Source: a virus
Reading direction: 5' to 3' (one strand)
Length of the DNA stretch: 31,915 nt
Virus record (IMG/VR): IMGVR_UViG_3300045454_000089
Location: 1-31,915 of that record
In this document: positions 8,762-24,570 of the stretch, piece after piece
Layout of the letters: each line of letters begins with the position of its first letter
Position numbering within the stretch: position 1 is the first letter of the stretch
Program-made: the position numbers and the translations under genes
Notes under the pieces: generated by a model
Database searches by the model: none
Seen by the model: the letters and a program-made list of their open reading frames with translations, nothing else
Told to the model about the DNA's origin: nothing

Positions 8762-8791
8762 AAAAAAACCAGCCCTGGGTTCAGGGCTGGT
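8762..8791 (-). terminator. Intrinsic terminator in the leader of promoter P3
   Basis: A perfect 10-bp stem (8768-8777 with 8782-8791, loop of four) is followed in the minus direction by seven T. It ends the portal/MuF transcription unit and also lies about 10-35 nt inside the predicted P3 transcript, so lysis/tail transcription must pass it. Confidence 0.88.
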
Positions 8792-8792
8792 T

Positions 8793-8824
8793 AGGTTAGA
8801 TTCAGTTTAGCGGTTTACTGGGGG
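8793..8824 (-). promoter_or_regulatory. Late promoter P3 (lysis and tail operon)
   Basis: On the minus strand: box CCCCC (8820-8824), 10 bp, -10 TAAACT (8804-8809), 5 bp, TAACCT (8793-8798), then the hairpin at 8768-8791. Spacing is identical to P1, P2 and P4. The box lies within the last codons of the 71-residue gene. I see no -35 hexamer. Confidence 0.75.
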
Positions 8825-9030
8825 TTTGGGAAGGGGGCAATCACCTGGTCGCGCCATTCGGGGTCTGTCTCGGCGGCCAGAGCGTCCAGAATACCAGAGT
8901 TGCGGCCAAAAAGCTCAACCGCCTCGGCACGCAGGCGGCGGTACTCCTGTGGCGACCAGCGGCCAGACTCGCGCAGATGTTCGACCTCCTGGCCGAACTC
9001 ACGGGGGGTTTTTCGGGTCGTCGTGGTCAT
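8815..9030 (-). CDS. Small protein after the MuF gene
   Basis: The start is ATG 9030, giving 71 residues (MTTTTRKTPREFGQEVEHLR...). Its ATGA overlaps the stop of the MuF gene. The longer frame upstream is shadow. The protein is charged and helical (SPQEYRRLRAEAVELFGRN) with a short Pro-containing tail. It is the last gene of the portal/MuF transcription unit. I do not recognise it. Given the fused peptidase domain on the gene just upstream, a cognate inhibitor or immunity protein is one possibility, but nothing in the sequence proves it. Confidence 0.7.
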   Translation of the reverse strand: MTTTTRKTPREFGQEVEHLRESGRWSPQEYRRLRAEAVELFGRNSGILDALAAETDPEWRDQVIAPFPNPQ

Positions 9031-10298
9031 AGCGGAATCCCCAGCCTCTCGCGCATCTGCCCAATTATAGCACGGCCCGCTGGGTCGTGCCGGCGCAAAA
9101 GCTCCTGGTGGTAGATATAGGCGACATTGGTCTCGCAAAGATACTCGCGCCAGCTAAAGCCCGCCCGGGCAGACACCGGGTTGGCCCGGTTAAATACGGG
9201 GCGCACAACCTGCTCCACCGCTGGAAAGCTGCCGAGGGCCTCTGCCCACGCCCAGATGAGGTCGTGAGTTAGCTCGTGAGCCAGTGATTTTTGCATAGAT
9301 TGCACTGGGTTGGGGGCCACATCCGAGACCCGCTCGACGGCGCCCCAGTCGCCAGACCGGAAAGTACGTTTCAGCCGGGGCCGCTCCGCCGAGATGCGTA
9401 TGCTTCGAGTGCGCGGGTCGTAATCACCGCCAACCAGCCCTCCGTCCAGGGGATCGGTCAGGCGCTCTAATATTCTGATGTCGCCAAGAGATCTGCGCTC
9501 GAGAAAGCCCAGCACTTTAGCCTTGTCAAGCGCTCTGAGTACGGTCTCGCGATCGGTTGCTGACAGATGGGTTACAGCCCGTTGATAATGCACTCCGGGC
9601 CTGGCCCGCTCGTGCTCTACTGCCGGGCTATCGTCGGCGCGCAGCCGGTTATAGGCCGCCCAGAGCTCGGGGTGGTAGTCGGCGGGGTCGGGGCTCCAGG
9701 CCCGGCGGCCCGGCGGGCTGCCAAAGCCCTCCATCGGAGGCTGAAAGGGCACCATCCGGGTCACCCGGCCCTCGGCCTGCTCTGCGCTAAATGTCACCAG
9801 TGCGGTCCGGCATCTGAAGTGGAGTGGCGGGGTGTGTGTGTGCCAGAAGGTATCGTCCGCCGGCCGCACCACCCCCGCCAGGTTCAGGCAGATGCGCGAG
9901 GTGCGGCCATCCAGCACCACCGCCAGGCCCCAGTAGGGGCGCTCGGCCCGCAGCTCGTCGGCGGCCTTATAGCGCCCCGCGCCGTAGGCCATCTGGATGT
10001 TGGTGTCAAAAATAGTTTTCAGCCGATGGGGGCTCTGGCCGCCCCAGGCCTTTTGCACCCGCAGGGATAGCCGGCTCTGGAACTGCTCGAAGGTCTCGCC
10101 CTCGGCCAACCCAGCGTCCAGCGCGTCCACCACCTCCTGCACCATGTCCAGCTGCGCCAGCCCAGTCACAAAAAAGGCCCGCTGTCGGGCCTGGTCGGCC
10201 AGGTTGAAGTACTCCTGGTCGGTGAGTGGAAGCCGGGCGCGGAACCACTCGATGGCGGCCTGGGGGTCAACCGGGTTGGCGTCTGGGGGCCAGGGCAT
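9027..10298 (-). CDS. MuF-type head morphogenesis protein fused to a zinc-peptidase-like domain
   Basis: This is a 423-residue protein. Residues 1-170 are a MuF/SPP1 gp7 minor head protein: helical N-terminus, then LKTIFDTNIQMAYGAGRY (93-110), VVLDGRTSRIC (127-137) and the closing HTHTPPLHFRCRT (153-165). Residues 230-423 are unrelated to this domain and contain HELTH (341-345), the HExxH zinc-binding motif, with CETNVAYIYH (388-397) offering E389 as a third ligand. MuF proteins with C-terminal effector domains are known as a phage polymorphic toxin class. MuF is a capsid protein, so the domain may be packaged and delivered. The transposase-type site at 9784-9798 lies at the junction. Confidence 0.88.
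   Translation of the reverse strand: MPWPPDANPVDPQAAIEWFRARLPLTDQEYFNLADQARQRAFFVTGLAQLDMVQEVVDALDAGLAEGETFEQFQSRLSLRVQKAWGGQSPHRLKTIFDTNIQMAYGAGRYKAADELRAERPYWGLAVVLDGRTSRICLNLAGVVRPADDTFWHTHTPPLHFRCRTALVTFSAEQAEGRVTRMVPFQPPMEGFGSPPGRRAWSPDPADYHPELWAAYNRLRADDSPAVEHERARPGVHYQRAVTHLSATDRETVLRALDKAKVLGFLERRSLGDIRILERLTDPLDGGLVGGDYDPRTRSIRISAERPRLKRTFRSGDWGAVERVSDVAPNPVQSMQKSLAHELTHDLIWAWAEALGSFPAVEQVVRPVFNRANPVSARAGFSWREYLCETNVAYIYHQELLRRHDPAGRAIIGQMRERLGIPL
9784..9798 (+). promoter_or_regulatory. Internal transposase-type site, left-end orientation
   Basis: GCGCTAAATGTCACC has the same CGCTAAATGTCACC core as L2 and L3, but lies inside the MuF gene where it encodes V-T-F-S-A on the minus strand (about residues 168-172), at the end of the MuF domain. 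Confidence 0.7.
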
Positions 10299-10372
10299 AA
10301 GAAGGGTCGCAAGTCGCAGGTAGATGGTCGAAGGTCGAAGGTCAAATGCTATCGGCTATAGTGTATCGGCGC
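10299..10372. repeat. Degenerate heptamer repeat tract between portal and MuF genes
   Basis: The gap reads as successive 7-bp units such as TGGTCGA AGGTCGA AGGTCAA ATGCTAT CGGCTAT. Similar 7-bp periodic tracts occur at 15535-15597, 18150-18186 and 24385-24490. I see no gene in it. Confidence 0.65.
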
Positions 10373-11947
10373 TCACAAATCCTCCCGCTGGGCCAGCATC
10401 CCAGCCATCTCGCCCAGCAGCCAGGCCGCCTCGACCAGCCTGCGCATAGAGCGGATGTCTAATTCGGGGAATAGCTCAATCAGGCGCTGACGCAGCCGCT
10501 CCGGGCTGGGCGCGGCCTGGATCTCGCGCACCAGGCGTTCCAGGGCGGGGGCGATGGCCTGGGCGGCCTCTTCGGTGCTGGCCCCCACCAGCTCGAAGAT
10601 GAACTGCTGGCCGCTCATCATGCCCGGTCTCAGCTCGCGCTCCAGGGCCGCCAGCGGGGTGCGGGCCTCCTGGGCAGCTCGCAGGGGCGCCTGCAGCGCC
10701 GCCCCCAGCCGCGCCAGCACCGGCTCATCCGGGGCAGGCTCAGGCACCCCGAATTTCTCGGCCACCCAGCGCTGCGAAATGGGGTAGCCCATCTGCTGCA
10801 GGATGTCCAGGGTTTTGGCTTTTTCGGCCAGGTCCTCACCTTCTTCGATGATCCCGATGACCTTTGGGGCCAGCCGCAGGTTCTCCGGCCCGGCGTTGAA
10901 GGCGGTAAAGGGGCGTGCCAGGTCGCGCCGGATGGTGCCGGCCAGGGCCTGCACGTCCACCTCCAGCAGATCGGTGCGGGTGCGGCGGTGCTCGCGCCCC
11001 AGGGCCTGGGTGCCGTGCTCGCCCTCGCCGCTGGTGAGGGTCTGGCCCAGGGTAGCCAGGGTCATCTCGCGGTTGGCCAGCTCGTAGATGCCCCGGTAGA
11101 CGTCGGGGCCGCCGGTAGCGCGGGATACCTCGATAATTTCGATCTCGGTATCCTTGCTGATGATGCCCGCCGCGTCGGTGCCCAGCGCCCGCACCGCCCG
11201 CTCCAGCGCCGCCAGCTCATCCTTGCCGGTGGCGGGGTCGTACTTGCCCAGCCGGTAGGGCTGGCCGAAAACCTCGGCGTAGACCACCCAGTCTTTGACG
11301 GCATAGTGCTTGAACAGATACCACCAGGCATTGGTGCGCATCAGGCCGGCCCGGGTTGGGCTGCCGGCACGGGCCTTGTAGCGGTGCTCCACCACCTGGC
11401 CGTAGGGCGGCAGGTAGCCCTGGGGGTGCTCCTGGGAGCGAATTTTGAAGCGCTTTAGCTCGAAGTCCCAGACCAGGAAGCGGGCCTCGATGTGCTCCAT
11501 CTGGCCGGGGAACCACAGGCCGCCCTGGCGCTGCCAGGCCACCCCGACCTGGCTGACGCCCTGGCCCAGGGCGTCCTGCAGGTCCAGCATCCAGCCCACC
11601 CGGCTCGAGTTCTCCCACCACTCCCGGAAAGCCTCGGCCAGGCGCCCGGCCTGGGCGCTATTATCGGCGGGCTCGATGCGCCATTCGATGCCAACGGCCG
11701 AGAGCTTGCGGTCCTGCATCACCTGGGCCAGCTTGCCGTCGCGCTCCTCCATCTCGCTGAATAGCTCGGCCTGTTGCTCCAGAAAGCCCTCGTCGGCCTC
11801 GTAGATGATGCGGCTCAGCTTCTCCGGGGTCAGGCCCCGACTGGGGTAGCTCTGGTAGCGCTGCTCCAGGCCCACCACCGGGCTGGGCTGTTGGCTGGTG
11901 GGGGGTCTGCCGGTTATGGGGTTGCCGTACTGATCCAGGATGGGCAT
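10373..11947 (-). CDS. Portal protein, Mu gp29 family (DUF935)
   Basis: This 524-residue protein is close to Mu gp29 in length. Typical DUF935 segments are present: the start ILDQYGNPI, MEERDGKLAQVMQDRKLSAV (about residues 66-85), WRIEPAD, and VYAEVFGQPYRLGKYDPATG followed by IISKDTEIEIIE. The portal is the dodecameric channel through which DNA is packaged and ejected. ATG 11947 follows GGAGG. It is the first gene behind late promoter P4 and is followed by the MuF gene after a 74-bp repeat gap. The order portal-MuF matches Mu gp29-gp30. Confidence 0.93.
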   Translation of the reverse strand: MPILDQYGNPITGRPPTSQQPSPVVGLEQRYQSYPSRGLTPEKLSRIIYEADEGFLEQQAELFSEMEERDGKLAQVMQDRKLSAVGIEWRIEPADNSAQAGRLAEAFREWWENSSRVGWMLDLQDALGQGVSQVGVAWQRQGGLWFPGQMEHIEARFLVWDFELKRFKIRSQEHPQGYLPPYGQVVEHRYKARAGSPTRAGLMRTNAWWYLFKHYAVKDWVVYAEVFGQPYRLGKYDPATGKDELAALERAVRALGTDAAGIISKDTEIEIIEVSRATGGPDVYRGIYELANREMTLATLGQTLTSGEGEHGTQALGREHRRTRTDLLEVDVQALAGTIRRDLARPFTAFNAGPENLRLAPKVIGIIEEGEDLAEKAKTLDILQQMGYPISQRWVAEKFGVPEPAPDEPVLARLGAALQAPLRAAQEARTPLAALERELRPGMMSGQQFIFELVGASTEEAAQAIAPALERLVREIQAAPSPERLRQRLIELFPELDIRSMRRLVEAAWLLGEMAGMLAQREDL

Positions 11948-11962
11948 GGGCCTCCAAGCAGA

Positions 11963-11989
11963 AGCCCCTGCTCGCGGCGAGCAGGGGCT
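11963..11989 (-). other. 12-bp perfect hairpin in the P4 leader
   Basis: AGCCCCTGCTCG at 11963-11974 pairs with CGAGCAGGGGCT at 11978-11989 across a 3-base loop. It begins directly after the TAACCT element of P4. No T run follows in the minus direction, so it is not a typical terminator. Confidence 0.85.
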
Positions 11990-12021
11990 AGGTTATTAGA
12001 AGTATACAGAGTTTTGGTGGG
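11990..12021 (-). promoter_or_regulatory. Late promoter P4 (portal and MuF operon)
   Basis: On the minus strand: CCCAC (12017-12021), 10 bp, TATACT (12001-12006), 5 bp, TAACCT (11990-11995). Spacing is the same as P1-P3. It lies between the portal gene and the divergent moron. Confidence 0.78.
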
Positions 12022-12136
12022 CACTGCTGAGCGAACTACTCAGGATTGTGCGTAACTACCTTTTTACACCTGGTTGAGTCTGCCGGCTTTAGGCCAGATG
12101 CCGCATCTGAGGTGCGCCGTCTTGTTAGTATGGGGC

Positions 12137-12646
12137 ATGGACGCCGAGCCCACTGGGTTAACAGTAGTATTGTTGCTTGCTGGATTTATCGGATTTTGGT
12201 GGGGAGTCTTCAGAAAAAGGGGCCACAAGGCCCGTTGGATAATCCCCTCTCTCATTATGTTGATGGCTGCACCCTACTTCTCCCCCGCCTGGCAGGCTCA
12301 GCTTCGGGAGGAGAATGCCCGACCCGAGGCCGCCAGCGTCGGTACGCCGCCAAAGCCCACCCCGCCACCAGCCCCAGCCCAGCCCGCCGCCCCAATAGTT
12401 AGAGACGCTGATGTGATTGTTGCCTGCCGGAACTTAATGCGCGACAATCTACGGGCGCCCTCTACCGCAAAGTTCCCCGGCTGGTTAGATGACCCAGGCA
12501 AGGTCTGGAAGTACCAGGGGACGTATCGGGTGCGCTCGTGGGTAGACGCGCAAAACGCCTTTGGGGCGATGGTCCGGACAGACTATCTGTGTGAGTTCAA
12601 TCCCACAAACAACGTCGTGACTATCCTCGAGGCCAGAACCCGTTAG
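12137..12646 (+). CDS. Membrane-anchored moron protein with C-terminal YRVRSWVDAQN-type domain
   Basis: This is the only plus-strand gene within the left arm. I start at ATG 12137 (169 residues). Two membrane segments (about residues 8-25 and 33-49) precede a Pro/Ala-rich linker (70-86) and a soluble C-terminal domain (90-169). That domain contains APSTAKFPG and YRVRSWVDAQNAFGAMVRTDYLCEF, a pattern I associate with many secreted or lipid-anchored bacterial and phage proteins of unknown function. It lies between two late transcription units and is transcribed against them, as expected of a gene expressed in the lysogen. Superinfection exclusion or another conversion function is possible but not shown. 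Confidence 0.78.
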   Translation: MDAEPTGLTVVLLLAGFIGFWWGVFRKRGHKARWIIPSLIMLMAAPYFSPAWQAQLREENARPEAASVGTPPKPTPPPAPAQPAAPIVRDADVIVACRNLMRDNLRAPSTAKFPGWLDDPGKVWKYQGTYRVRSWVDAQNAFGAMVRTDYLCEFNPTNNVVTILEARTR

Positions 12647-12795
12647 CGGCAATTAGGAAACCGCTCTGCGCTAAATGTCACCAAGCCAAACCGCCTAAAA
12701 CCGTTTTTACGGCCTTTCTAGGATTGAACCGAGGGGGAAAAACCCAGACCACAGCCAACACCCGGCTAGATTTTGCCCTGGCGCGGCCAGGCGGG
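12647..12795. other. Convergent gap between moron and terminase
   Basis: The 149-bp gap holds one transposase-type site (12668-12682) and a short GC stem near 12777-12791 (CCTGGC with GCCAGG) that could end terminase transcription, though its T run is poor. I see no gene. Confidence 0.5.
12668..12682 (+). promoter_or_regulatory. Internal transposase-type site, left-end orientation
   Basis: GCGCTAAATGTCACC shares the full CGCTAAATGTCACC core of L2/L3. Even the bases before it (CTCTGCGCTAAATGTCACCA) match the copy at 9779-9799. It lies in the noncoding gap after the moron and faces the inverted copy at 15598-15612. Confidence 0.75.
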
Positions 12796-14073
12796 CTAAA
12801 AGGTGCCCTGAAGCCTCTCTTCCCGACCGGCAAACCGGCTGCGCTGGACGGTGTGGTACTCGATGGGGCCCCGGACCCGGCCCCGGGCGTGTTTGGCCAG
12901 GGCCTTGGCCCAGAAATGATCGGCGTGACCAGCCTCGTTGCGCTCGGCGTCGTAGCGCACATTGCCCGCGCTGGTCAGGATGCGCTTGATGGAGTGCAGG
13001 CTCTGGCGCAGGGTCTGGTCGCCCCGGGGGATGCGCTCCTTGCGGTCCTCGAAGCCCAGGCGCAGGTTCTGGGCCAGGTCGGCCTTGGTCTGTAGGTTGA
13101 ACTGCACCGGCTCCACCTTCCAGCCAAACCGGCGGCGGGCCTCCTCGGCCAGCATCTCGCCCATGCCGGTGCTGTCAATGCAGGCCCGGCGCACGCGCGG
13201 AATCAGGGCCAAGAGGGCCTCGAGCTGGGCGTGAAAGGGGGTGTTGTGCAGCTCGACAATTTTGCGGCACCAGGCCACATCGCCCACCACCTCATCAATC
13301 CAGATTACGGTCAGGTCGCGCCGCCGGGCGATATCCATGCCCAGGTAGGCATTTTCGGCGATCCACTCGTCCGACAGCGTGTCCGGGGACTCGGCGGCCA
13401 GAATCAGGTCGTAGGGGATAAAGGCGCTGGACTCGTCTAAAAACTCCAGCAGATACTCCTGCTGCCAGGCCAGGGGGTCGTTCAGGGCGATGCGCAGCTC
13501 CTCGGGGTCCACTGCCAGCCCATCGGCCACCGCATCGTAAATGCTGGTTTTGTGTCGGCTCCAGCCCTCGGCCTTGTGCCACAGCTCGGCAAACTGGTTG
13601 AGCTGGCCGTTGGGGGTGCTGGTGATGCGCACCTTGTAGCTGGGGTTGCGGGTGATGATGGGGAAAACCGCCCGCCAGATGCCCGCCGGGTCTTTGTGGA
13701 AGGCAAACTCGTCCAGGTTCAGGTTGCCGCTGTAGCCGCGCGCGGTGGCCGGGTTGGCGGGCAAGAACAGGTGGCGCGAGCCGTTGGGCAGCCGGTACTC
13801 GAACTGGGTCACCCGCTGCTCACCGTCGAAAAAGGTGTCTTCCAGGGCTTTGGCCGCGATCTGGTAGGCGTCCAGGTGTAGCTTGACCTTCTCGGCCAGC
13901 TCCAGGGTCTGCCGCTGGCCGCTGGCCAGGTGAATCCACAGGGTTTTGCGCTGCACGCTGTCGTCCACGGTCTCCAGGGTCGCGGCAAACGACTTGCCGA
14001 TCTGCCGCGCCGCCAGCCAGATTTTGAAGCGGCTCCGGTCTTCCACCCAGCGTTTTTGATAGGGCAGCAGCAT
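12796..14073 (-). CDS. Terminase large subunit, Mu gp28-like
   Basis: This 425-residue protein is the packaging motor. The ATPase has Walker A ARQIGKS (22-28), Walker B LNLDE (118-122, catalytic E122) and the coupling motif TSTPNG (151-156). The RNase H-like nuclease has acidic residues D247 (LGMDIARRRD), D300 (CIDSTGMG) and D385 (HADHFW). It lacks the extra N-terminal extension of some terminases and is shorter than Mu gp28. The start at 14073 lies directly after the small subunit stop. Mu-type terminases cut phage DNA integrated at random sites, so headful packaging with host DNA at the ends is expected. Confidence 0.93.
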   Translation of the reverse strand: MLLPYQKRWVEDRSRFKIWLAARQIGKSFAATLETVDDSVQRKTLWIHLASGQRQTLELAEKVKLHLDAYQIAAKALEDTFFDGEQRVTQFEYRLPNGSRHLFLPANPATARGYSGNLNLDEFAFHKDPAGIWRAVFPIITRNPSYKVRITSTPNGQLNQFAELWHKAEGWSRHKTSIYDAVADGLAVDPEELRIALNDPLAWQQEYLLEFLDESSAFIPYDLILAAESPDTLSDEWIAENAYLGMDIARRRDLTVIWIDEVVGDVAWCRKIVELHNTPFHAQLEALLALIPRVRRACIDSTGMGEMLAEEARRRFGWKVEPVQFNLQTKADLAQNLRLGFEDRKERIPRGDQTLRQSLHSIKRILTSAGNVRYDAERNEAGHADHFWAKALAKHARGRVRGPIEYHTVQRSRFAGREERLQGTF

Positions 14074-14074
14074 A

Positions 14075-14629
14075 TTATTTGCTCAGTCCGTAAATTTCCT
14101 GCCGGATGGTCTCTAAGGTCTCGGGGTCCAGGTTGCGAGTGGCCAATTTGCCCACCACCTTGTCGGCGGCTGCGGCGGCCTGGTCTTTGGAGAACACCCG
14201 CTCGGCCTTTTCCAGGGCCAGGCTGGCCTGTACCGCCCGCACCCCGGTCAGTAGCATTCCGCCCACCGCCTTGGGCTCAATTTCGGCGGGGTCAAACTGC
14301 TCCAGGAATCGTAGCAGCTTGTGAATCAGCACGTTGGTAAAGGCTACCTGCAAGGACATCTGCTTGCCGGTGGATTTGCTGATGGCCTCCATCACCTGCT
14401 GGGCCTCCAGTGCGGCCCCCAGCGCGGGCAGCAGGTGGTTGGTGCGGTGGCGCGAGAGCCCGCCGGTGCTGATCTGTTCGCCCTGCTGGGCAGTCCAGAT
14501 TACGATGTCCTCCACCCGCCAGACCGAGCCGTCCGGCTTTCGGGTCTCGCCCAGGAGCATCTGGTCTAGCTGGTCGCGCAATGGCGACTGGCAGACCTTG
14601 CACCGCGTGGACTGCACATAAATGGCCAC
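14075..14629 (-). CDS. Terminase small subunit, Mu gp27-like (DUF3486 type)
   Basis: This 184-residue protein lies just upstream of the large subunit, as Mu gp27 does. It has a DNA-binding-like N-terminal half with C-x-x-C (C10, C13) and the segment QQGEQISTGGLSRHRTNHL (about residues 48-66), similar to the helix-turn-helix region of gp27. A helical C-terminal half probably serves oligomerisation. The start is GTG 14629 after GGAGGGTGA, immediately behind the stop of the preceding gene. Only one Cys pair is visible, so a zinc site would need other ligands. Confidence 0.8.
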   Translation of the reverse strand: MAIYVQSTRCKVCQSPLRDQLDQMLLGETRKPDGSVWRVEDIVIWTAQQGEQISTGGLSRHRTNHLLPALGAALEAQQVMEAISKSTGKQMSLQVAFTNVLIHKLLRFLEQFDPAEIEPKAVGGMLLTGVRAVQASLALEKAERVFSKDQAAAAADKVVGKLATRNLDPETLETIRQEIYGLSK

Positions 14630-15194: not shown

Positions 15195-15443
15195 TCACGG
15201 ATTCAGGCCCCCAGGCAGTTTGACCCCCAGCAACGCAGCAATCAGCACCATAAACACCAGTGCGACCCGCCACAAATCCCCCTGTTGCCACCAGGGTGGC
15301 CGCCGATCGGGGATCCGCTCCAGCAGTTTTATGGCCAGCATCGTCTCGCGCATCTTGCGGATATGCTCCTTGCGTTCCGGTGTTGCCTGCGCCGCCAGTT
15401 CATCCAGCATGTCCTCCAGTAGTGAGCGTTCCAGTTCATTCAT
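15195..15443 (-). CDS. Small membrane protein, first gene of the terminase operon
   Basis: I start at ATG 15443 (MNELERSLL, 82 residues). The alternative start at 15467 would put the codon inside the leader hairpin, while 15443 has GGGGCGGA in front. Residues 1-55 are charged and helical, and about 58-76 form a membrane helix (WRVALVFMVLIAALLGVKL). It lies directly behind late promoter P2. Its topology resembles that of the 65-residue protein downstream. The function is unknown. Confidence 0.72.
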   Translation of the reverse strand: MNELERSLLEDMLDELAAQATPERKEHIRKMRETMLAIKLLERIPDRRPPWWQQGDLWRVALVFMVLIAALLGVKLPGGLNP

Positions 15444-15458
15444 TCCGCCCCATAGCAA

Positions 15459-15482
15459 AGCCCCCACCGGAAGGTGAGGGCT
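15459..15482 (-). other. Hairpin in the P2 leader
   Basis: A 10-bp stem with one G-T pair (15459-15468 with 15473-15482, 4-base loop) begins right after TAACCT of P2. Three T follow in the minus direction, so it could act as a weak terminator for early transcription entering from 15606. Confidence 0.72.
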
Positions 15483-15514
15483 AGGTTAGCTTCAGTATAG
15501 CGCTTTTTTGTGGG
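15483..15514 (-). promoter_or_regulatory. Late promoter P2 (terminase operon)
   Basis: On the minus strand: CCCAC (15510-15514), 10 bp, TATACT (15494-15499), 5 bp, TAACCT (15483-15488). Spacing is identical to P1, P3 and P4. It lies in a noncoding gap behind the early genes. Confidence 0.8.
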
Positions 15515-15612: not shown

Positions 15613-15812
15613 GAATCGCCCAGCGGCTGGATCATAAACAGCGCCCGGTCGCCCACCCGCTTCCACCAGACCCAGGCCCCGTTGTAGCGGAACCAGTTAT
15701 CCAGGAAGTGGCCGTCGGCGGTCATCGGATAGCCCCGCTGGGTCAGGCCCCGGTAGGCCGGTATGCAGCGGGCCTCGGCGTGTACGGCGGATTCAAATGG
15801 CCTCTGATACAT
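15606..15812 (-). CDS. Small hypothetical protein, last early gene
   Basis: This 68-residue protein (MYQRPFESAVHAEARCIPAY...) overlaps the start of its upstream neighbour's end by 20 bp. It has an aromatic-rich C-terminal half (FLDNWFRYNGAWVWWKR) and no recognisable family. It ends the early cluster. Its stop codon lies in the internal transposase-type site. Confidence 0.65.
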   Translation of the reverse strand: MYQRPFESAVHAEARCIPAYRGLTQRGYPMTADGHFLDNWFRYNGAWVWWKRVGDRALFMIQPLGDSR

Positions 15813-16203
15813 TCCGCACCTCCTTGCAGACCCGGCGCAGCCGGTGCGCCAGCTCGCACACCTGTTCGGGCACGTTCGCGCGTTCGAACCGTCCGCGTAC
15901 AGGCCGCCAACGGAACAACATGTTCCAGCGCGCGGTGTTCAGGTGTGCGTTCAGGGCCTCGCGTTCGGCGGGCGAGAGCTCGGCCAGGAACGACTCCAGG
16001 TCGCGCCTCCACAGCCGCAGCTCGTGCGCCCCGATCCGGGCGTCCGGCAGCTCGGGCACGAAGACCGCCAGATAGCTGGCCCGGTGGGGGTTGTGGCCGC
16101 CCAGTACCCTCTGCCAGGACTTGAGCCCCCGGCCCGCCATCCAGAGCGTCCGAACCACGTGTTCGGCCTGCCAGGTTGCGCGGTGTTCGGGGCGTTCGTT
16201 CAC
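15793..16203 (-). CDS. Hypothetical early protein
   Basis: This 136-residue protein is rich in Arg and Trp. An N-terminal segment (TWQAEHVVRTLWMAGRGLKSW, within residues 10-31) precedes a helical C-terminal half (SPAEREALNAHL, VCELAHRLRRVCKEV). No family is recognised. The start is at 16203, overlapping the preceding gene by 4 bp. Its position at the end of the early genes corresponds to where Mu carries middle-operon regulator genes, but I see no Mor/C-like sequence. Confidence 0.65.
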   Translation of the reverse strand: MNERPEHRATWQAEHVVRTLWMAGRGLKSWQRVLGGHNPHRASYLAVFVPELPDARIGAHELRLWRRDLESFLAELSPAEREALNAHLNTARWNMLFRWRPVRGRFERANVPEQVCELAHRLRRVCKEVRNVSEAI

Positions 16204-16478
16204 AGTTCCTCCGTCCAGGTCCAGGTACCAACATTTAGTTCCTCCAGCCGGGTACCGGCATCTAACGTGGCCAGATCGAAGGCCTCGAGTAGCTTGTGGT
16301 ACTCCGACGCGGTGTCCCAGTGCTCGTAGTTGATGCCCAGCGCGCCTAAAGCTCTACGGATGGTTTCAACGATCTGCCACTGTATTTGCGCGGTCGCAAC
16401 GTAGTGGCCTTTCGATTTAGGCGCCTCTCGTGCTACTCGAAGCGCTGCAAAAAGTAGATCTCGTTTGGTTTTGTTCAC
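16200..16478 (-). CDS. Hypothetical early protein
   Basis: This 92-residue protein starts at GTG 16478, with GTGA overlapping the stop of the gene upstream. It has helical segments (KRDLLFAALRVAREA, IQWQIVETIRRALGALG) and an acidic C-terminus ending TWTWTEEL. Several codons are less GC-rich than in the neighbours, which hints at separate origin. No function is assigned. Confidence 0.65.
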   Translation of the reverse strand: MNKTKRDLLFAALRVAREAPKSKGHYVATAQIQWQIVETIRRALGALGINYEHWDTASEYHKLLEAFDLATLDAGTRLEELNVGTWTWTEEL

Positions 16479-16819
16479 TTCAGCACCTCCCGCCCCAGGT
16501 CTTCAATCGGAGCATCGTCGCCCTGGGCCTTGCGCCAGTTGGGGCCGTAGATTGTGATGGAGTTGCCCTCCAGTATGCAGCGATAGTCGCTAACCGCGCC
16601 ACCCTGGGTATGGCGCACAAAAAGCCGCTTACACGCATCCATAGCCGCCGGGGTCAGGTCTAGCTGGATTATCTGCCGACTGGCTGCGGCCAGCGCGGCC
16701 TGGGCTTGCAGCCGCTCGACCTCCAGCTTCTTCTCGGCCTCGTAAAATCCGATCAGCAGACCCACCACCGCAGCAGCCACCATGACCCAGGGCACGACCA
16801 AGAACCCGTCCCCTCGCAT
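16475..16819 (-). CDS. Membrane-anchored early protein
   Basis: I start at ATG 16819 (MRGDGFLVVPWVM, 114 residues) behind AGGAGGTGGTGAG. The longer upstream frame is shadow. Residues 6-24 form one membrane helix, followed by a short coiled coil (EAEKKLEVERLQAQAALAAA) and a soluble end with two Cys (C about 62 and 82). The layout of a single N-terminal anchor plus coiled coil resembles i-spanins, but it sits among early genes, so a different membrane role is also possible. Confidence 0.7.
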   Translation of the reverse strand: MRGDGFLVVPWVMVAAAVVGLLIGFYEAEKKLEVERLQAQAALAAASRQIIQLDLTPAAMDACKRLFVRHTQGGAVSDYRCILEGNSITIYGPNWRKAQGDDAPIEDLGREVLK

Positions 16820-16820
16820 C

Positions 16821-17225
16821 TCACCACCTCCTGAGAGCCGTTTCAGCTTCAAAGAGCGCCTGCTGGATAGCCGCTGGTTGCTCAATCTCGCCCCACCTGA
16901 GCGTCCTGGCCTCACGGTAGGCCAGGCAGCGCTCCAGGCCGCTTTTTATGTAGCTCAGCGCGTAGGCCATGATGCGGTCGGCCTGGTCGGCGGAGTTGGC
17001 GATGTGATACCGCCGCGTCATGGGGTCAAAGCCCACGACCTCGGGAGGCACCCCCGGCTTGCTAGGCCGGGCCGAGAGCCGGGCGCACAGCTCCACCGCC
17101 TCCCGCATCTCGCGGTCACCCGCTCCAATTGCATGGGCCAGGGCGTCGCGGTCCAGGCCCGCCGGCCCAGCCTCCCACAAGGCCTGGTAGACCGCGCGGG
17201 CCAGGTCAAGCCTAGGGTCGCTCAT
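16821..17225 (-). CDS. Hypothetical early protein with winged-helix-like N-terminus
   Basis: I start at ATG 17225 (MSDPRLDLARAVYQALWEAG, 134 residues), preceded by GGAGGTGCGGG and overlapping the previous gene by 14 bp. Residues 5-75 look like a winged helix: helix LARAVYQALWEAG, then LDRDALAHAIGAGDREMREAV, then a beta hairpin (PEVVGFDPMTRRYHIA). The C-terminal half is helical. This makes it a candidate early DNA-binding or regulatory protein. The family is not recognised. Confidence 0.68.
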   Translation of the reverse strand: MSDPRLDLARAVYQALWEAGPAGLDRDALAHAIGAGDREMREAVELCARLSARPSKPGVPPEVVGFDPMTRRYHIANSADQADRIMAYALSYIKSGLERCLAYREARTLRWGEIEQPAAIQQALFEAETALRRW

Positions 17226-17529
17226 CCCGCACCTCCCAGGTATAGGGCCCGTACATGGCCAGGTAGTCGCGCAGGGTGCGTCCAGAGATGGGCATCCACT
17301 CGGATAGCGCGTAAAGGTAGATGCTGTAGCGCGGCCCAACGCCAGCCGCGCCCGCCTCGCTGGTTTCGGGTCCGTCGTAGCGCACCCGGATGACCAGGTC
17401 GGCGCAGGAAAGTTCCACAATCTGGCCCTGGTGGCCGTGCAGCACCCGGAGGGCCTCGGCCAGGTTGCTGCTGCGGTCCTGCTTGCGTTCACCAGCGCGT
17501 TGTGCGGCCAGGGCACGGGCGCTAGGCAT
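17212..17529 (-). CDS. Hypothetical early protein
   Basis: This 105-residue protein starts at ATG 17529 after GAGGAGGT. A basic N-terminus (AAQRAGERKQDRSSNLAEAL) precedes a beta-rich core (IVELSCADLVIRVRYDG, YSIYLYALSEWMPISG). No family is recognised. Its stop overlaps the start of the winged-helix-like protein downstream, so the two are probably translated together. Confidence 0.65.
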   Translation of the reverse strand: MPSARALAAQRAGERKQDRSSNLAEALRVLHGHQGQIVELSCADLVIRVRYDGPETSEAGAAGVGPRYSIYLYALSEWMPISGRTLRDYLAMYGPYTWEVRDERP

Positions 17530-17540
17530 GGTCTACCTCC

Positions 17541-17780
17541 TCAGGCGGCGCAGTGAAAACACAGGATGTCATCCAGCCTCCCGGTGTTGCCGCACGTCGG
17601 GCAGATGTAGCCCTGCAGCCGCATAATCGAGCGGATGCGCTCGGCGGCCTCCAGGGCCTCGGCCACGTCGGCGTAAAGCTGAGCGCCATAGCGGTTGCCG
17701 TTCTGCTTGCAGACCCGCCCGTAGCGGCGGGCCTGGCTGGGGCTCAGCTTGCGCTCGTAGATGCGGTCCAGACCAGTCAC
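17541..17780 (-). CDS. Small zinc-ribbon protein
   Basis: This 79-residue protein has a helical, basic N-terminal part (KLSPSQARRYGRVCKQNGNRYG) and a C-terminal zinc ribbon CPTCGNTG...CFHC (C-x2-C at about 60-63, C-x2-C at 74-77). The start is GTG 17780, with GTGA overlapping the previous stop. Zinc ribbons of this size often bind nucleic acid or RNA polymerase, so this is one candidate for a transcription factor of the late promoters. That is speculation from fold and position. Confidence 0.75.
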   Translation of the reverse strand: MTGLDRIYERKLSPSQARRYGRVCKQNGNRYGAQLYADVAEALEAAERIRSIMRLQGYICPTCGNTGRLDDILCFHCAA

Positions 17781-18139
17781 GGCAGCTCCACCCCCTTCAT
17801 CCGGTGCGGATTGCGAAGTGTGTCCTGCACCTGCTCGTCCGATGCCTGGCGGCCAAGCACGCCAAACAGGTCCAGTGCAACCAGGTGCGCGGCCATAATG
17901 CGCCTCGCTGCAAATTTGAGCTGCGAGGGCTCGACCTCGTTGGTCTCGGACAACTGCCGCGCCGCGTAGATGAGGTCGCTGGCGATGTCGTGCAGGTAGT
18001 AGTACAGGAGCTTCTCGGGCTCAATCTGCGCCTTGGCGACCAGGGCCTCGATAGCGTCCTGGCTGGCCTGATACGCCTCGTTCGGGAGGTGCTGGTTCTG
18101 CTGGGGCTGGGTCTGCTGGGGCTTGTTGGGCAGTTTCAT
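17777..18139 (-). CDS. Hypothetical helical early protein
   Basis: This 120-residue protein starts at ATG 18139 behind AAGGAGAGAA. A Gln/Pro-rich N-terminus (KPQQTQPQQNQH) is followed by an all-helical region (EKLLYYYLHDIASDLIYAARQ, AARRIMAAHLVALDLFGVLG). No family is recognised. It begins a new translation block, separated from the MraZ pair by a heptamer-repeat tract. Confidence 0.68.
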   Translation of the reverse strand: MKLPNKPQQTQPQQNQHLPNEAYQASQDAIEALVAKAQIEPEKLLYYYLHDIASDLIYAARQLSETNEVEPSQLKFAARRIMAAHLVALDLFGVLGRQASDEQVQDTLRNPHRMKGVELP

Positions 18140-18186: not shown

Positions 18187-18292
18187 TTGACGAGGGTTGC
18201 TTTTTGTCGCTGCGGCCCCGGCTGCGCTTGGGCTCTGCCTCGCCCCAGAGCGGGCGCAGGTCGGGGTCGCGGTATGAAGGGAAGGGTCTCAT
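18164..18292 (-). CDS. Small basic protein coupled to MraZ
   Basis: A 42-residue frame (MRPFPSYRDPDLRPLWGEAE...) begins with ATG at 18292, whose ATGA overlaps the MraZ stop. The second half is strongly basic (KRSRGRSDKKQP). Its end runs into the heptamer tract, so the C-terminus may have been extended by repeat insertion. It is probably translated by coupling with MraZ, but its small size makes the call tentative. Confidence 0.5.
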   Translation of the reverse strand: MRPFPSYRDPDLRPLWGEAEPKRSRGRSDKKQPSSIGRRSKA

Positions 18293-18717
18293 CGCAGCAG
18301 GGCCCGTACCGGCTCGGGTACGGCGTACTGGGCGCTGGACAGGCGGGTTAGCTCGGTGTCCCAGCGTTCGGGGTTCCAGAGCTCCAGCCGGGTTTTGAGG
18401 CCCAGCACCACCACCTGGTGCTCGAGCTCGGCATAGTCGAGCAGCTGGGGCGTCAGGGCGATGCGCCCCGCCCGGTCGGGCCGGGTTTGCAGGGCCGCCC
18501 CGATAAAGAACCGGGCCAGGGCAACCGCCCTGGGGTTGTTGGCGGGCAGCTCGGTCAGGGCGGCTTCCAGCCGCCGCCAGGTGGCCAGCGGAAAGACGTA
18601 CAGGCAGCCCTCCAGGCCCCGCGTTACCACCAGGCCGCCGGCCAGGGCGGGGCGGAACTCGGCGGGCAGCATCAGGCGGCCCTTTTCGTCCAGGGTGTGG
18701 TGGTGCTCCCCGATCAC
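18289..18717 (-). CDS. mraZ: MraZ-family transcription regulator
   Basis: This 142-residue protein has the full MraZ layout of two AbrB-like repeats. The first is GEHHHTLDEKGRLMLPAEFR (3-22, DxKGR signature 10-14). The second is DRAGRIALTPQLLDYA (81-96, DxxGR signature). The linking segments are also family-typical (RGLEGCLYVFPLATW 33-47; LELWNPERWD 111-120). Bacterial MraZ is encoded first in the dcw division/cell-wall cluster, forms rings and binds repeated TGGG-type sites. Here it lies in an early phage operon, with GTG 18717 overlapping the previous stop. It may control phage promoters or the host division cluster. The family call is firm; the role is inference. Confidence 0.93.
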   Translation of the reverse strand: MIGEHHHTLDEKGRLMLPAEFRPALAGGLVVTRGLEGCLYVFPLATWRRLEAALTELPANNPRAVALARFFIGAALQTRPDRAGRIALTPQLLDYAELEHQVVVLGLKTRLELWNPERWDTELTRLSSAQYAVPEPVRALLR

Positions 18718-19148
18718 GACAGCACCCTCCCCCGGCCGGCCATGTCGGCGATGGTCTTTTCGTCCAGCTTTTTCTCGAAAATTTCGGCGGCGTAGGCCAG
18801 CAGGGCGGCGTACAGCGCTTTGCGCTCGTGTTCCAGGCCGTCCTTTTCAAAGGTCAGCTTGTCAATCTGCACCGCAATCTGCTCGGCCCGCTCGGCCAGG
18901 CCCTCGTAGTCCAGGTCTTCCAGCACCTGCACCTTCAGGTAGTCCGAGCGCTCGGCCTCGGATTTAAGGGTCTTGTAGCTCTCGCGCAGCCGCGCCCCCT
19001 GCCGCACATACACCTCGCGGCGCTCCAGATCTTTTTTCACCTTGTCGCGCTCGGCCCGCATGGCCACCAGCTGCCGGTTGATGCGGGTAATCTCGGCAGG
19101 TATCGAAAGCAGCCTGGTGCGGCGTTGTTCAGCGAAGTCGTGGGTCAT
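18714..19148 (-). CDS. Coiled-coil early protein
   Basis: This 144-residue protein starts at ATG 19148 behind GGAGGAG. It is almost entirely charged helix with long coiled-coil stretches (ITRINRQLVAMRAERDKVKK; IAVQIDKLTFEKDGLEHERK). Mu has a DNA-end-binding coiled-coil protein (Gam) among its early genes. Position and architecture allow that comparison, but I do not see sequence evidence for Gam. It directly precedes mraZ with a GTGA overlap. Confidence 0.72.
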   Translation of the reverse strand: MTHDFAEQRRTRLLSIPAEITRINRQLVAMRAERDKVKKDLERREVYVRQGARLRESYKTLKSEAERSDYLKVQVLEDLDYEGLAERAEQIAVQIDKLTFEKDGLEHERKALYAALLAYAAEIFEKKLDEKTIADMAGRGRVLS

Positions 19149-19486
19149 GGTTGGCTCCTCCAGGTCTGGGAAATCTCGGCCTCGCTCGGGCGAGTCGCAA
19201 GCAGCACCCGCCGCAGCACCTGGCCGTACTTGCCGGCGTGTAGCTGGATCTCGGTCTGGGTGGCGATCACCTGCACGGTCTGGGTGGCGCCCATCTGACC
19301 GCTGGGGTCCAGGTTGCGCAGGGTGAGCACTGCGCCTTCCTGCAGCCAGGTGATGTCGCCCCGGATGTAGTTGATGGGGCGCTGGGGCCAGTCGCCCTCC
19401 GGGGTGGCCATGTAGAGCAGGGTGGCCACGTCGTCCAGCCGGGGGATGCGCTCGCCCGCCACCTCGATCTCGCGGCGTTTTTTCAT
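19145..19486 (-). CDS. Hypothetical early protein
   Basis: I start at ATG 19486 (MKKRREIEVAGERIPRLDDV, 113 residues) because its ATGA overlaps the stop of the preceding gene. A GTG at 19498 is the alternative. It is a mixed alpha/beta protein with a beta-rich middle (VLTLRNLDPSGQMGATQTVQ followed by VIATQTEIQL). The family is not recognised. Confidence 0.66.
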   Translation of the reverse strand: MKKRREIEVAGERIPRLDDVATLLYMATPEGDWPQRPINYIRGDITWLQEGAVLTLRNLDPSGQMGATQTVQVIATQTEIQLHAGKYGQVLRRVLLATRPSEAEISQTWRSQP

Positions 19487-19953
19487 GGCAGCACCCACCG
19501 GAGCGCCCCGGTGTGTGGCGCTAGCAACAGGGGCGGGCGTTGGCGGTCGCAGTGCCCGGCCCAGGGGGCTCTGGGGTCGTAGCGGCAGGGCTCCGCGAAA
19601 ACCTTGAGCAGGTAGGTCAGGCCGTAGTGGTTCCAGCCCTCCACATGGCCCAGCTCGTATAGCTCCATAGCCGTTCGGAGTTCCTGCTCCTGCTGGTCGG
19701 TCAGCCAGGGGTGGTGGGGGTCAAAGTAGACCACCGTTCCGCCCAGGGTTACGCCGTAACCCCACCATCGCTGGTGCAGGGGGCCGTCGGAGATGCGAAT
19801 AATGGTGATGGGGGTGAGGTAGAGAGCCGGGCTGCGCTGGGCCACAAACTCGGCGCTGAGGGCAAAGCCGCCCCCCACCACCTGGCCCCCGGCCAGCAGG
19901 CCAAAGGCCAGCGCAACCAGGCTCAGAATGCCCACCGGGGTCAGTTCGGGCAT
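19483..19953 (-). CDS. Membrane-associated protein with degenerate zincin-like motif
   Basis: I start at ATG 19953 (MPELTPVGILSLVALAFG, 156 residues), 2 bp after the stop of the tiny gene upstream. A hydrophobic N-terminal segment (about 8-30) could be an anchor or signal. The segment MELYELGHVEGWNHYGLTYL (about 110-129) looks like the helix of small metallopeptidases (HExxH-x-x-Q-x-x-x-x-G) but the first His is Tyr, so zinc catalysis by the usual route is unlikely. Three Cys-containing or His-rich features follow (EPCRYDP, GHCDRQ). The function is unknown. Confidence 0.66.
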   Translation of the reverse strand: MPELTPVGILSLVALAFGLLAGGQVVGGGFALSAEFVAQRSPALYLTPITIIRISDGPLHQRWWGYGVTLGGTVVYFDPHHPWLTDQQEQELRTAMELYELGHVEGWNHYGLTYLLKVFAEPCRYDPRAPWAGHCDRQRPPLLLAPHTGALRWVLP

Positions 19954-19955
19954 GG

Positions 19956-20051
19956 CTACCGACCCCCCCACCAGACAATGGCGTGGATGATGGCCACCAT
20001 AAACGCGCCGGTAGTCACGTCCCGCAGCAGGTCTTTCACGCGGTGCTTCAC
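19956..20051 (-). CDS. Tiny membrane protein
   Basis: A 31-residue frame (VKHRVKDLLRDVTTGAFMVA...) starts with GTG at 20051, overlapping the stop of the 77-residue gene, and ends 2 bp before the next start. A basic N-terminus and one hydrophobic helix (about residues 16-27) suggest an inner-membrane peptide. It is too short for a firm call, but it fits exactly between two coupled genes. Confidence 0.5.
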   Translation of the reverse strand: MKHRVKDLLRDVTTGAFMVAIIHAIVWWGGR

Positions 20052-20281
20052 AGCCGGCCTCCTTCTTTCCAGCGCTGCACGGTCTGGATGCAGTCGGCCA
20101 GGGCGGCCAGGGCCGCCAGCGGGCTGGGGGCCGCCGTGGGGGTCTTGTGGGTGTGGCCCGTCCACTGGTCGGTCACGCACACCAGGTAGCCGCCCTCCAC
20201 GTGGACCCAGGCGGTGGTGAACCCCTCCAGCCGCAGTTCTTTGGCCAGGGCGCGGGCTTTGTCCAGGTCGTCTTCGGTCAT
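20048..20281 (-). CDS. Hypothetical protein after MuB
   Basis: This 77-residue protein starts at ATG 20281, with ATGA overlapping the MuB stop. It starts with a charged helix (DDLDKARALAKELRLEGF), then a beta hairpin (AWVHVEGGYLVCVTDQWTG) and a C-terminal Ala-rich helix. No family is recognised. Coupling to MuB suggests an early role in replication or its control. Confidence 0.66.
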   Translation of the reverse strand: MTEDDLDKARALAKELRLEGFTTAWVHVEGGYLVCVTDQWTGHTHKTPTAAPSPLAALAALADCIQTVQRWKEGGRL

Positions 20282-21096
20282 GGCTGTCCTCCTCCGGCCA
20301 GGTTGAGTTTTTTGGCCACCGCCGTCACGTTCTTGGGGGCAAAGTTGGCGCGGTTTAGTCCCTTGTCGGCGTTCTTGCCGATAGCCCGGTCAATCTGCTT
20401 CATCAGGCGCAGCACGTCGCGCATCACCCCGCCGGTCAGGTCGTGGATTTTTTGCAGGCTGGCCCGGGGCAGGCCCGCCAGCAGGGGCATCTGGGCCAGC
20501 TCGTCGGCCTCTACCGGCTCGGCTTCGGCAATTACCCCGATGCGGCTCTCGATGTCGCGCCAGCGGCGAATCTGGGGGGCAAAGTCTTCGGTGGCGATCA
20601 GAATGAAAGTGCTGCTGGTCTCGTCGGCCAGATATTTGAGCACCTCGTAGCTGTCGCGTGGCATGCGCTGGGCCTCGTCCACCACCGCCACCATGCGCTT
20701 GGCCCCCAGCTGGGTGTGTACCGTGCCCAGCAGGTCGCGAAAGCGGCGGGTGCGGGTGATGTAGAGGTTCAGGGCCAGGTCTTCCAGCAGGGCGCCGGGC
20801 TCGTAGCTGGGCTGGGCGTGGATCCAGGCGGTGTTCAGGTCGGGCCACTGCTCCCGCACGTAGCGCAGAAAGTGCTTGGCGGTTACGGTTTTGGAGCAGC
20901 CCGCCGGGCCGGTCACCAGCGCGAAGGGGAACTGGTCTTCCACCGCGTCGCGCAGCCGGGCGGCAATAATGCGGGTGGCGCGGGTCTGCACAAAGTCCAC
21001 CTCGTCGTCCAGCACGTCGCCGTACTCGCTGGCCAGCCAGTCTTCCACGATCTTGTCTACGTCTGCCGGGTTGATGTAGTCTTGTGTCTGAGCCAT
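20278..21096 (-). CDS. MuB-like AAA+ ATPase, target-DNA activator
   Basis: This 272-residue protein has Walker A GPAGCSKT (63-70), Walker B VVDEAQ (138-143), a sensor-1 region (TFILIATED, about 163-171) and an arginine-finger-like IRRWRDIESRIG segment. MuB polymerises on DNA, delivers target DNA to the MuA transpososome, stimulates strand transfer and gives target immunity. It is slightly shorter than Mu B (312 residues), with only about 40 residues before the ATPase core, so the N-terminal DNA-binding region is reduced. ATG 21096 follows AAGGAGAG. It lies 46 bp after the transposase gene. Confidence 0.93.
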   Translation of the reverse strand: MAQTQDYINPADVDKIVEDWLASEYGDVLDDEVDFVQTRATRIIAARLRDAVEDQFPFALVTGPAGCSKTVTAKHFLRYVREQWPDLNTAWIHAQPSYEPGALLEDLALNLYITRTRRFRDLLGTVHTQLGAKRMVAVVDEAQRMPRDSYEVLKYLADETSSTFILIATEDFAPQIRRWRDIESRIGVIAEAEPVEADELAQMPLLAGLPRASLQKIHDLTGGVMRDVLRLMKQIDRAIGKNADKGLNRANFAPKNVTAVAKKLNLAGGGQP

Positions 21097-21142
21097 ACTC
21101 TCTCCTTTGGTTCCATTTGCTTCGACGGGGTGGGTGGTAGCC

Positions 21143-23401: not shown

Positions 23402-23407
23402 GTTGAG

Positions 23408-23650
23408 TTACTCCTCGGAGTGAGTTTCCGCTGGCAAAAAGTAGCTTATGGGCTTGTGTAATGCTCGAGACAGCCTGGCGGCCGTTCTCACAGTCAGCCC
23501 TCGTTGCCCCCGTTTGCCCCCCAGTAGCATAGCAACATGGCCCGTTGAAAGGTGCGCCTCACGCGCTAGATCGGCCTGTGTCAGACCGCGTTCCAGCAGC
23601 GCCGTGCGGATTCGTTCTGCCAATGTGTCGGTAGGTCGCTTTACTCCCAT
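23408..23650 (-). CDS. Ner/Cro-like helix-turn-helix regulator
   Basis: I start at ATG 23650 (MGVKRPTDTLAERIRTALLE, 80 residues). The longer frame upstream would run through the operator and the divergent repressor gene and reads as shadow. Residues 9-62 are an HTH of the Cro/C1 type (LLERGLTQADLAREAHLSTG, then HVAMLLGGKRG). The minus-strand promoter TTGACT-18-TAGACT places the transcript start at about 23652, so this mRNA is probably nearly leaderless. It precedes the transposase gene by 6 bp. By position it is the Ner/Cro equivalent that damps early and repressor transcription. Confidence 0.85.
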   Translation of the reverse strand: MGVKRPTDTLAERIRTALLERGLTQADLAREAHLSTGHVAMLLGGKRGQRGLTVRTAARLSRALHKPISYFLPAETHSEE

Positions 23651-23688
23651 GTGTGAGTAGTCTACACTTACACGCGGGAGTAAGTCAA
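23640..23688. promoter_or_regulatory. Divergent early/repressor promoters with dyad operator
   Basis: An imperfect dyad has TTACTCCC (23641-23648) and GGGAGTAA (23676-23683) as perfect outer arms, with partly matching inner arms. It overlaps a plus promoter (TTTACT 23640-23645, 17 bp, TACACT 23663-23668) and a minus promoter (TTGACT at 23683-23688, 18 bp, TAGACT at 23659-23664). This is the expected lysis-lysogeny switch. Confidence 0.78.
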
Positions 23689-23689
23689 T

Positions 23690-24391
23690 ATGCCAAAACC
23701 AAAGCGTCACGACCTGAAGGGTCCATTCAACGACGAGATTCGGCGTGTGATGGACGAGCGTGGTTGGACAAAATTGGAGCAGTTTGCCGACCACTTTGGC
23801 ATCGGTCGCACCACGGTATATACCCTGGTACTGGGGAGACACACCGCCCAGGGTGAGTGGATAAAGCCCAGTCTGGATACATTAATCCGACTTGCAAGGG
23901 CTTTGCAGCGCCCTGTAGACCATTTGTTAGAGCGTTTGTACCCAGAACTTGACTTGCCAAAACCATCAGCCCAACTTGGCGCAAAAGATGCCGTAATGGT
24001 CCCGGTGGTTGGCATTGTCGGCGCCGGGCCGGGCCAGAGTGTGGAGCGGGAGACCAGCGCGGTCTTTGTGCCCAACCGGGTGGCCAGGGGCAAGCGGCTG
24101 GCGGCCTACCAGGTGCAGGGCGACTCGATGTGTGCCGGCAAGCGGCCCATCTGCGATGGCGACCTGGTGGTGGTGAACCGCAACGACAAAGGGGCCAGCG
24201 AACAGGTGGTGGTGGCCCGGCTGGCCGATGGCAGCTATGTCTGCAAGGCCCTCAAGGACGACCGCTTTGGCCGGCGCTTGATGTCGCTAAACCCCCTGTA
24301 TACTAACAATGCCCCTCCCATCATCCCCGCCGAGCATGTGGATGAAATCATCGGGCGGGTGGTCTGGGTGCAGGGGGCGGTTGATAGCTGA
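23690..24391 (+). CDS. LexA/CI-type S24 repressor
   Basis: This is a 233-residue protein. The N-terminal HTH (about 10-80) includes KLEQFADHFGIGRTTVYTLV. The C-terminal S24 peptidase domain (about 100-230) has the cleavage-type dipeptide A112-G113 (VGIVGAGPG), catalytic Ser146 (QGDSMCAG) and catalytic Lys186 (SYVCKALK). Such repressors bind operators as dimers and can self-cleave when RecA filaments form, which would make this prophage inducible by DNA damage. Mu's own repressor is not of this class. ATG 23690 follows GGGAG. The C-terminal stop at 24391 lies at the edge of the heptamer tract. Confidence 0.92.
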   Translation: MPKPKRHDLKGPFNDEIRRVMDERGWTKLEQFADHFGIGRTTVYTLVLGRHTAQGEWIKPSLDTLIRLARALQRPVDHLLERLYPELDLPKPSAQLGAKDAVMVPVVGIVGAGPGQSVERETSAVFVPNRVARGKRLAAYQVQGDSMCAGKRPICDGDLVVVNRNDKGASEQVVVARLADGSYVCKALKDDRFGRRLMSLNPLYTNNAPPIIPAEHVDEIIGRVVWVQGAVDS

Positions 24392-24490
24392 TAGTTGATA
24401 GCTAATAGCCTAAAGCTGAAAGCTAAAAGCATTAGGTTTTCAGTCTTCAGCCTTTATTTGACCTGCGACCTGTGACCTGAGACCTGCGAC
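24385..24490. repeat. Long degenerate heptamer repeat tract
   Basis: About 15 consecutive 7-bp units drift gradually, for example GTTGATA GCTGATA GTTGATA GCTAATA, later GTCTTCA GCCTTTA, and then TGCGACC TGTGACC TGAGACC TGCGACA. The tract lies between the repressor gene and P1. I see no gene in it. Confidence 0.85.
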
Positions 24491-24503
24491 ATTCTATTCA
24501 CAG

Positions 24504-24535
24504 CCCACTGCGACGTGCTATAGTAGAGCTAACCT
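24504..24535 (+). promoter_or_regulatory. Late promoter P1 (right-arm structural operon)
   Basis: CCCAC (24504-24508), 10 bp, TATAGT (24519-24524), 5 bp, TAACCT (24530-24535). It is the plus-strand member of the four-promoter family. A TTCACA 16 bp before the -10 could serve as -35 here, but it is absent from the other three. Confidence 0.8.
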
Positions 24536-24545
24536 AGCCAACTTA

Positions 24546-24570
24546 CCCCCGGGGGAAACCCGGGGGTTTT
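24546..24570 (+). terminator. Terminator-like hairpin in the P1 leader
   Basis: CCCCCGGG (24546-24553) pairs with CCCGGGGG (24559-24566), followed by TTTT and a second T stretch. It would end repressor transcription and also lies about 15-40 nt into the P1 transcript. Confidence 0.85.

Follow-up and report, generated by a model that had tools for sequence, protein, structure and literature searches.

A rigid late-promoter module with features of lambda Q and AlpA target promoters in Mu-like phages of the Thermales

The window analyzed here, the whole of a 31.9 kb virus record (IMGVR_UViG_3300045454_000089, 31,915 nucleotides), has a Mu-like gene set that includes an rve-type transposase and a MuB-like ATPase, and in it four promoters of one rigid design (P1 to P4) stand before the late transcription units. 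The phage is Mu-like with Meiothermus-type hosts, and its nearest named relatives are prophages of Meiothermus hypogaeus and Meiothermus sp. KatS3mg071. Each promoter consists of a C-rich box upstream of the -10 hexamer (the spacer box), the -10 itself, a second -10-like element five bases further on, and a hairpin in the leader of the transcript. The pattern CCCMC-N10-TAWAST-N5-TAACCT has exactly four matches in the window, at 24504(+), 15514(-), 12021(-) and 8824(-), and the reversed pattern used as a control has none. A scan with a generic form (TANNNT-N5-TARNNT plus a GC-rich hairpin) returns the same four sites and no others, against a mean of 0.1 in dinucleotide shuffles. The original prediction, made from the letters of this DNA, that four sites share one architecture, down to a spacing of N5, a TAACCT element and a hairpin in each leader, is thus borne out. 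Its further statement that no -35 is shared holds for P2, P3 and P4, none of which has a convincing -35, and needs qualifying for P1, where an imperfect TTCACA is found. Start sites, and hence all positions given relative to them, are inferred by taking transcription to begin seven bases after the -10. The elements are as follows.

24497, + strand: P1 -35, TTCACA, imperfect and weak, with a 16 bp spacer
24504..24508, + strand: P1 spacer box, CCCAC, about -27..-23
24519..24524, + strand: P1 -10, TATAGT, an extended -10 (preceded by TGC)
24530..24535, + strand: P1 -10-like element, TAACCT, about -1..+5
24545..24567, + strand: P1 leader hairpin with a T-rich tail, terminator-like
15510..15514, - strand: P2 spacer box, CCCAC
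15494..15499, - strand: P2 -10, TATACT
15483..15488, - strand: P2 -10-like element, TAACCT
15460..15481, - strand: P2 leader hairpin with a weak T tail
12017..12021, - strand: P4 spacer box, CCCAC
12001..12006, - strand: P4 -10, TATACT
11990..11995, - strand: P4 -10-like element, TAACCT
11963..11989, - strand: P4 leader hairpin with a weak T tail, just 5' of the portal ribosome-binding site
8820..8824, - strand: P3 spacer box, CCCCC(A)
8804..8809, - strand: P3 -10, TAAACT
8793..8798, - strand: P3 -10-like element, TAACCT
8767..8792, - strand: P3 leader hairpin with a T run behind it, a clear terminator

We asked whether this arrangement is conserved in related prophages, which were collected through their portal protein and so independently of the promoter motif. 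They fall into three clades: clade A (G001, G002, G029 and G026, the portal of G026 being 60% identical), clade B (Thermus-type prophages, portal identity about 50%) and clade C (portal identity about 38%). The module is found at the homologous genes in these relatives, which supports the observation independently. In clade A, CCCA-N11-TANANT-N5-TAACCT precedes the same three units, namely terminase, portal and right-arm genes. The clade B form (CCCCA box, TARNNT, N5, TAAGGT, hairpin) precedes the terminase and right-arm units and also an endolysin-like gene, and the clade C form (AGCAAAA box, -10, N5, TA(A/G)NNT, hairpin) the terminase and protease units. What is common to 24 promoters from the three clades is a -10 hexamer, 5 bp, TA(A/G)NNT, and a GC-rich hairpin within the first ~40 transcribed bases. 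The promoter cores of one further Thermales genome, G042, are identical to those of P1 and P2 of the window.

The spacing of five bases stands out. Over eight regions the generic scan gives 19 matches at spacing 5 and 0-2 at each other spacing from 0 to 15, with a dinucleotide-shuffle background of 0.05-0.18 per region, and in every region listed the matches are late promoters only. Across 15 whole genomes, all 14 matches of the clade A pattern lie in clade A genomes and all 17 of the clade B pattern in genomes of clade B; both reversed controls give 0. The exact motif occurs in 28 viral contigs, one site in each, which by our own estimate (2^-31 per position) is about chance level for a collection of this kind; a single true relative is among them. 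Two prophages, one of clade A and one of clade C, occur together in the assembly of Meiothermus sp. KatS3mg071 (G002; contigs C2 and C19), and their late boxes differ.

The genes behind the four sites of the window include the following; a Phage_Mu_F gene is also present.

24603..24911, + strand: first gene of the P1 unit, followed by the protease and gpT
25022-26005, + strand: Mu-like protease, P1 unit
26422-27327, + strand: gpT major head subunit, P1 unit
15195..15467, - strand: first gene of the P2 unit, 90 amino acids, followed by TerS and TerL
14075-14629, - strand: Mu Gp27-like terminase small subunit (TerS), P2 unit
12796-14073, - strand: terminase large subunit (TerL), P2 unit
10373..11947, - strand: portal (Portal_Mu), first gene of the P4 unit
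8237..8743, - strand: endolysin-like protein (carboxypeptidase-like), first gene of the P3 unit

An open reading frame (ORF) of 190 amino acids (12074-12646, +) lies on the opposite strand between the terminase genes and P4, has no counterpart in the relatives searched, and is a possible cargo gene. The endolysin-like proteins found behind the same late promoter module are unrelated to one another, being carboxypeptidase-like in the window and, by eye, M23-like in the P3 units of clade B (G067:107975 and G055:137701).

In the second element, T1, A2 and T6 are present in 24/24 promoters and position 3 is A in 23/24, while positions 4-5 depend on the clade (CC in A, GG in B, a mixture in C). The invariant T1, A2 and T6 are the letters that sigma reads in a -10 element, and the register of the element is about -1..+5. 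The spacer box occupies the same place in every clade, about -27..-20, but its sequence is clade-specific (CCCA in A, CCCCA in B, AGCAAAA in C), which makes it a candidate binding element within the -35/-10 spacer. The -35 elements of clade A and clade C promoters are poor. Clade B promoters have a TTGACA-like -35 at 17-18 bp as well as the box, and since both are present the box there adds to the -35 and does not replace it.

A GC-rich hairpin, nearly always of 8-12 bp, is found in 26/26 of the leaders examined; it begins at +6 to +17 and ends by +41, and its sequence varies even among the promoters of one phage. Those of P1 and P3 are clear intrinsic terminators, and P2 gives a weak pass in the terminator scan. 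T-rich tails follow the hairpin at P1 and P3 of the window, at P2 and P4 of G026, and in most clade C leaders. The original prediction counted an immediate terminator among the parts of the module: the hairpin is indeed universal, but an immediate terminator is not supported as a part of every module, clade B leaders having no U-tract directly after the hairpin. The leader hairpin is also a possible 5' stabilizer of the transcript.

Directly upstream of P2, the promoter of the terminase unit, and at the end of the early region, prophages of clades A-C carry a gene that we call LateR.

15793..16203, - strand: LateR, 136 amino acids, basic (isoelectric point 10.9), candidate Q-like late regulator

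The 3' end of LateR lies at or shortly upstream of P2 and overlaps the -10 region in clades B and C. The gene is conserved in all the relatives and occurs in 15/111 Thermales genomes, nearly all of which also have the portal of this prophage, and in ten viral contigs. The division into clades A, B and C is seen in box sequence and in LateR alike. LateR has no match in Pfam, PHROGs, NCBIfam or the PDB sequences, and lambda Q does not match a LateR profile; because sequence homology was tested for and not found, we place LateR outside the known Q families (lambda, 21, 82). Structure models for two clades are confident (predicted local distance difference test scores of 89.8 and 87.7) and show an alpha/beta protein with two adjacent helices and a beta-hairpin, which, to judge from the secondary structure only, could form a winged helix-turn-helix (HTH). 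Foldseek searches of the models against the PDB and BFVD gave nothing significant. In a second look (VIA), the only rows common to both models are sigma-A region 4/flap-tip chimeras, with Z scores of 2.4-2.8 that are within noise; they serve as a lead only, in view of the resemblance of 21Q to sigma region 4 (PMC6606751). From its place and its pattern of conservation, LateR is the best candidate for a Q-like factor.

From this anatomy we infer the following sequence of events. Host sigma-A RNA polymerase would initiate at the -10, after which sigma region 2 would re-bind the -10-like TA(A/G)NNT at about -1..+5 and keep the enzyme paused soon after the start. The paused polymerase would be loaded with a phage protein that sits on the clade-specific box (about -27..-20), and would then go on through the leader hairpin and the terminators further along. 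The protein most likely to be loaded is LateR (15793-16203), and in clade A the factor may also aid initiation, the -35 elements being poor there. We lean, by a small degree, towards the view that the late units of Thermales Mu-like phages start in this way at promoters of Q/AlpA type with LateR as the factor most likely loaded. In the features that can be tested in sequence, the leader terminator and protein binding to the box aside, the promoter architecture appears to match Q/AlpA-type control. The lambda Q-like mechanism already suggested for the window gains strong comparative support from the second element, the spacer box and the unclassified gene 5' of P2, but finds no support for the general terminator that it included.

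Several observations weigh against promoter-loaded antitermination. P4 is not called by the terminator scan, and the weakness of P2 and P4 in that scan is a difficulty for it. In clade B there is no U-tract directly after the hairpin (CAAAACCTTTTGG or similar is found there), and for that reason the clade B hairpin is not a canonical intrinsic terminator. Even where a T-rich stretch is present, it may partly belong to the ribosome-binding region. The P2 promoter of G025 has a spacing of 6 in place of 5. No sequence match, and no clear structural one, connects LateR with a Q or AlpA protein. Finally, the virus record L116 (IMGVR_UViG_3300045912_000463) encodes a remote LateR homologue, about 31% identical, and lacks the module in the 12 kb examined. 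This record has a TTGAAA-N17-TAAAGT promoter with a long inverted repeat behind it and no second element, and two regions resembling a terminase small subunit.

The main rival is a conventional activator with stabilizing leaders, which we consider unlikely. LateR or another early protein would bind the box near -27 and recruit polymerase where the -35 is poor, the hairpins would stabilize the 5' end of the mRNA or insulate the ribosome-binding site, and the second element would reflect a start-site preference. The poor -35s of clades A and C fit this, a factor at the position of the box could contact sigma, and the hairpins come close to the transcript start and immediately ahead of the ribosome-binding site, with U-tracts that are not universal. 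However, in clade B a TTGACA-like -35 at 17-18 bp is present besides the box, and a start-site preference leaves unexplained an invariant T6, free positions 4-5 in three clades and a strict N5.

It is improbable that these are simply strong, factor-independent sigma-A promoters with stabilizing leaders, timed by DNA replication or repressor release alone. Several of the -10 hexamers are near consensus and that of P1 is extended, but a clade-specific box at a fixed place in every promoter of a phage would then have no role, and the restriction of the module to late units would be left over. RNA-borne antitermination of the put or nut kind, in which the leader hairpin, or a protein on it, modifies the polymerase, is distinctly improbable. 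No leader feature is more universal than the hairpin, which sits at the very 5' end, yet this scheme leaves both the spacer box and the second element unexplained; sequence-specific recognition of the RNA hairpin in particular is disfavored because hairpin sequences differ between the promoters of one phage. Least credible of all is a reading of the box by the phage's own MraZ, encoded in the early operon of the window and its closest relatives: the CCCA of the box is the complement of TGGG, the core of the MraZ box, but the G026 region has the clade A box and no MraZ was found in it, the mraZ found close to prophages of clades B and C is the host gene beside rsmH, and the promoters have single boxes, unlike the spaced repeats of MraZ sites.

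The phage MraZ gene itself (18289-18717, -; Pfam 2e-30) may originate from the host mraZ-rsmH site. Prophages of clades B and C sit near host mraZ-rsmH, and this prophage site has already been reported in Thermus aquaticus (PMC4605624). Several early genes of the window, in 16475-18139 (-), are closest to clade C prophages, for instance 17541-17780 with 79% identity against 51% to clade A, while the promoters, LateR, MuA and MuB are of clade A, and the window is by these affinities a natural recombinant, or mosaic. Since ORFs 17541-17780 and 17777-18139 are clade C-like beside clade A promoters, they are unlikely as box readers and we disfavor them. All clades conserve two other early ORFs, 18714-19148 and 19145-19498, and these are possible box readers.

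Of known systems in phages of the same type, phage Mu has several late promoters, as here, and encodes its Mor/C late regulator where the early region ends, which is the place of the candidate LateR. The Mu C activator binds at other sites, whereas the box here is in the spacer, and no Mor domain match was found for LateR or for the other early ORFs scanned, nor any Mor/C homologue among these. Two phage antiterminators that act on host polymerase, gp39 of the Thermus phage P23-45, which acts on Thermus polymerase, and P7 of Xp10, offer a further likeness. Neither gp39 nor P7 is known to need a spacer box and a pause element in several late promoters. The action of P7 on host polymerase has been described (PMC6624301).

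The lambda, 21 and 82 Q systems have a binding site in the spacer, a -10-like element just past the start and an early terminator (PMC6606751, PMC9371919). The Thermales module has such a -10-like element at a fixed register, a candidate binding element in the spacer, and a leader hairpin whose U-tract is clear in some promoters and absent in clade B. Lambda pR' reads TTGACT-N17-TAAATT-N6-AACGAT, and the lambda Q gene lies directly upstream of it, the same relation as that of LateR to P2. In contrast to the two to four late promoters here, lambda has one; its spacing is N6 and not N5; and pR' has a good -35. In the Thermales phages a terminator is not universal. The absence of sequence similarity between LateR and these proteins has precedent, as the known Q families have none to one another (PMC6606751, PMC9371919). 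Close in layout, too, is AlpA of Pseudomonas aeruginosa, which has more than one target promoter, a binding element in the spacer, a -10-like element at -1..+5 and a terminator soon after, at +26 or +54 (PMC7969949, PMC9371919). The AlpA binding element spans -25..-20, and at one target the terminator starts at +26 (PMC7969949); A+1 and T+5 of the -10-like element are required (PMC9371919). The Thermales module has its elements in this same register. AlpA differs in being all-helical, with an N-terminal ring and a C-terminal HTH, whereas LateR is predicted to be alpha/beta and has no sequence link to it, and in its target, a host lysis program in place of Mu-like virion genes.

We found no report of Q-like control in Mu-like or Thermus phages in the open-access literature. 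Tentatively, LateR may be the first of a new family of promoter-loaded antiterminators, unrelated to the others and with a fold of its own, that evolved in Thermales Mu-like phages and acts on a Thermus-type polymerase, in each phage at two to four promoters, through a box that varies by clade and a pause element that is fixed. As Thermus polymerase is a favorite of structural biology, the proposal can be put to a direct test and might yield loading complexes at high resolution, and the three clades are a natural set of matched protein-box pairs for the study of specificity. The rigid promoter module layout has so far been known from lambda Q and Pseudomonas AlpA, with Q-type control worked out in enterobacterial phages and for one Pseudomonas regulator; its use by Mu-like phages of the Thermales beside an unrelated protein, if true, would suggest that loading of a regulator onto a polymerase paused by sigma is a strategy of general use that has arisen more than once.

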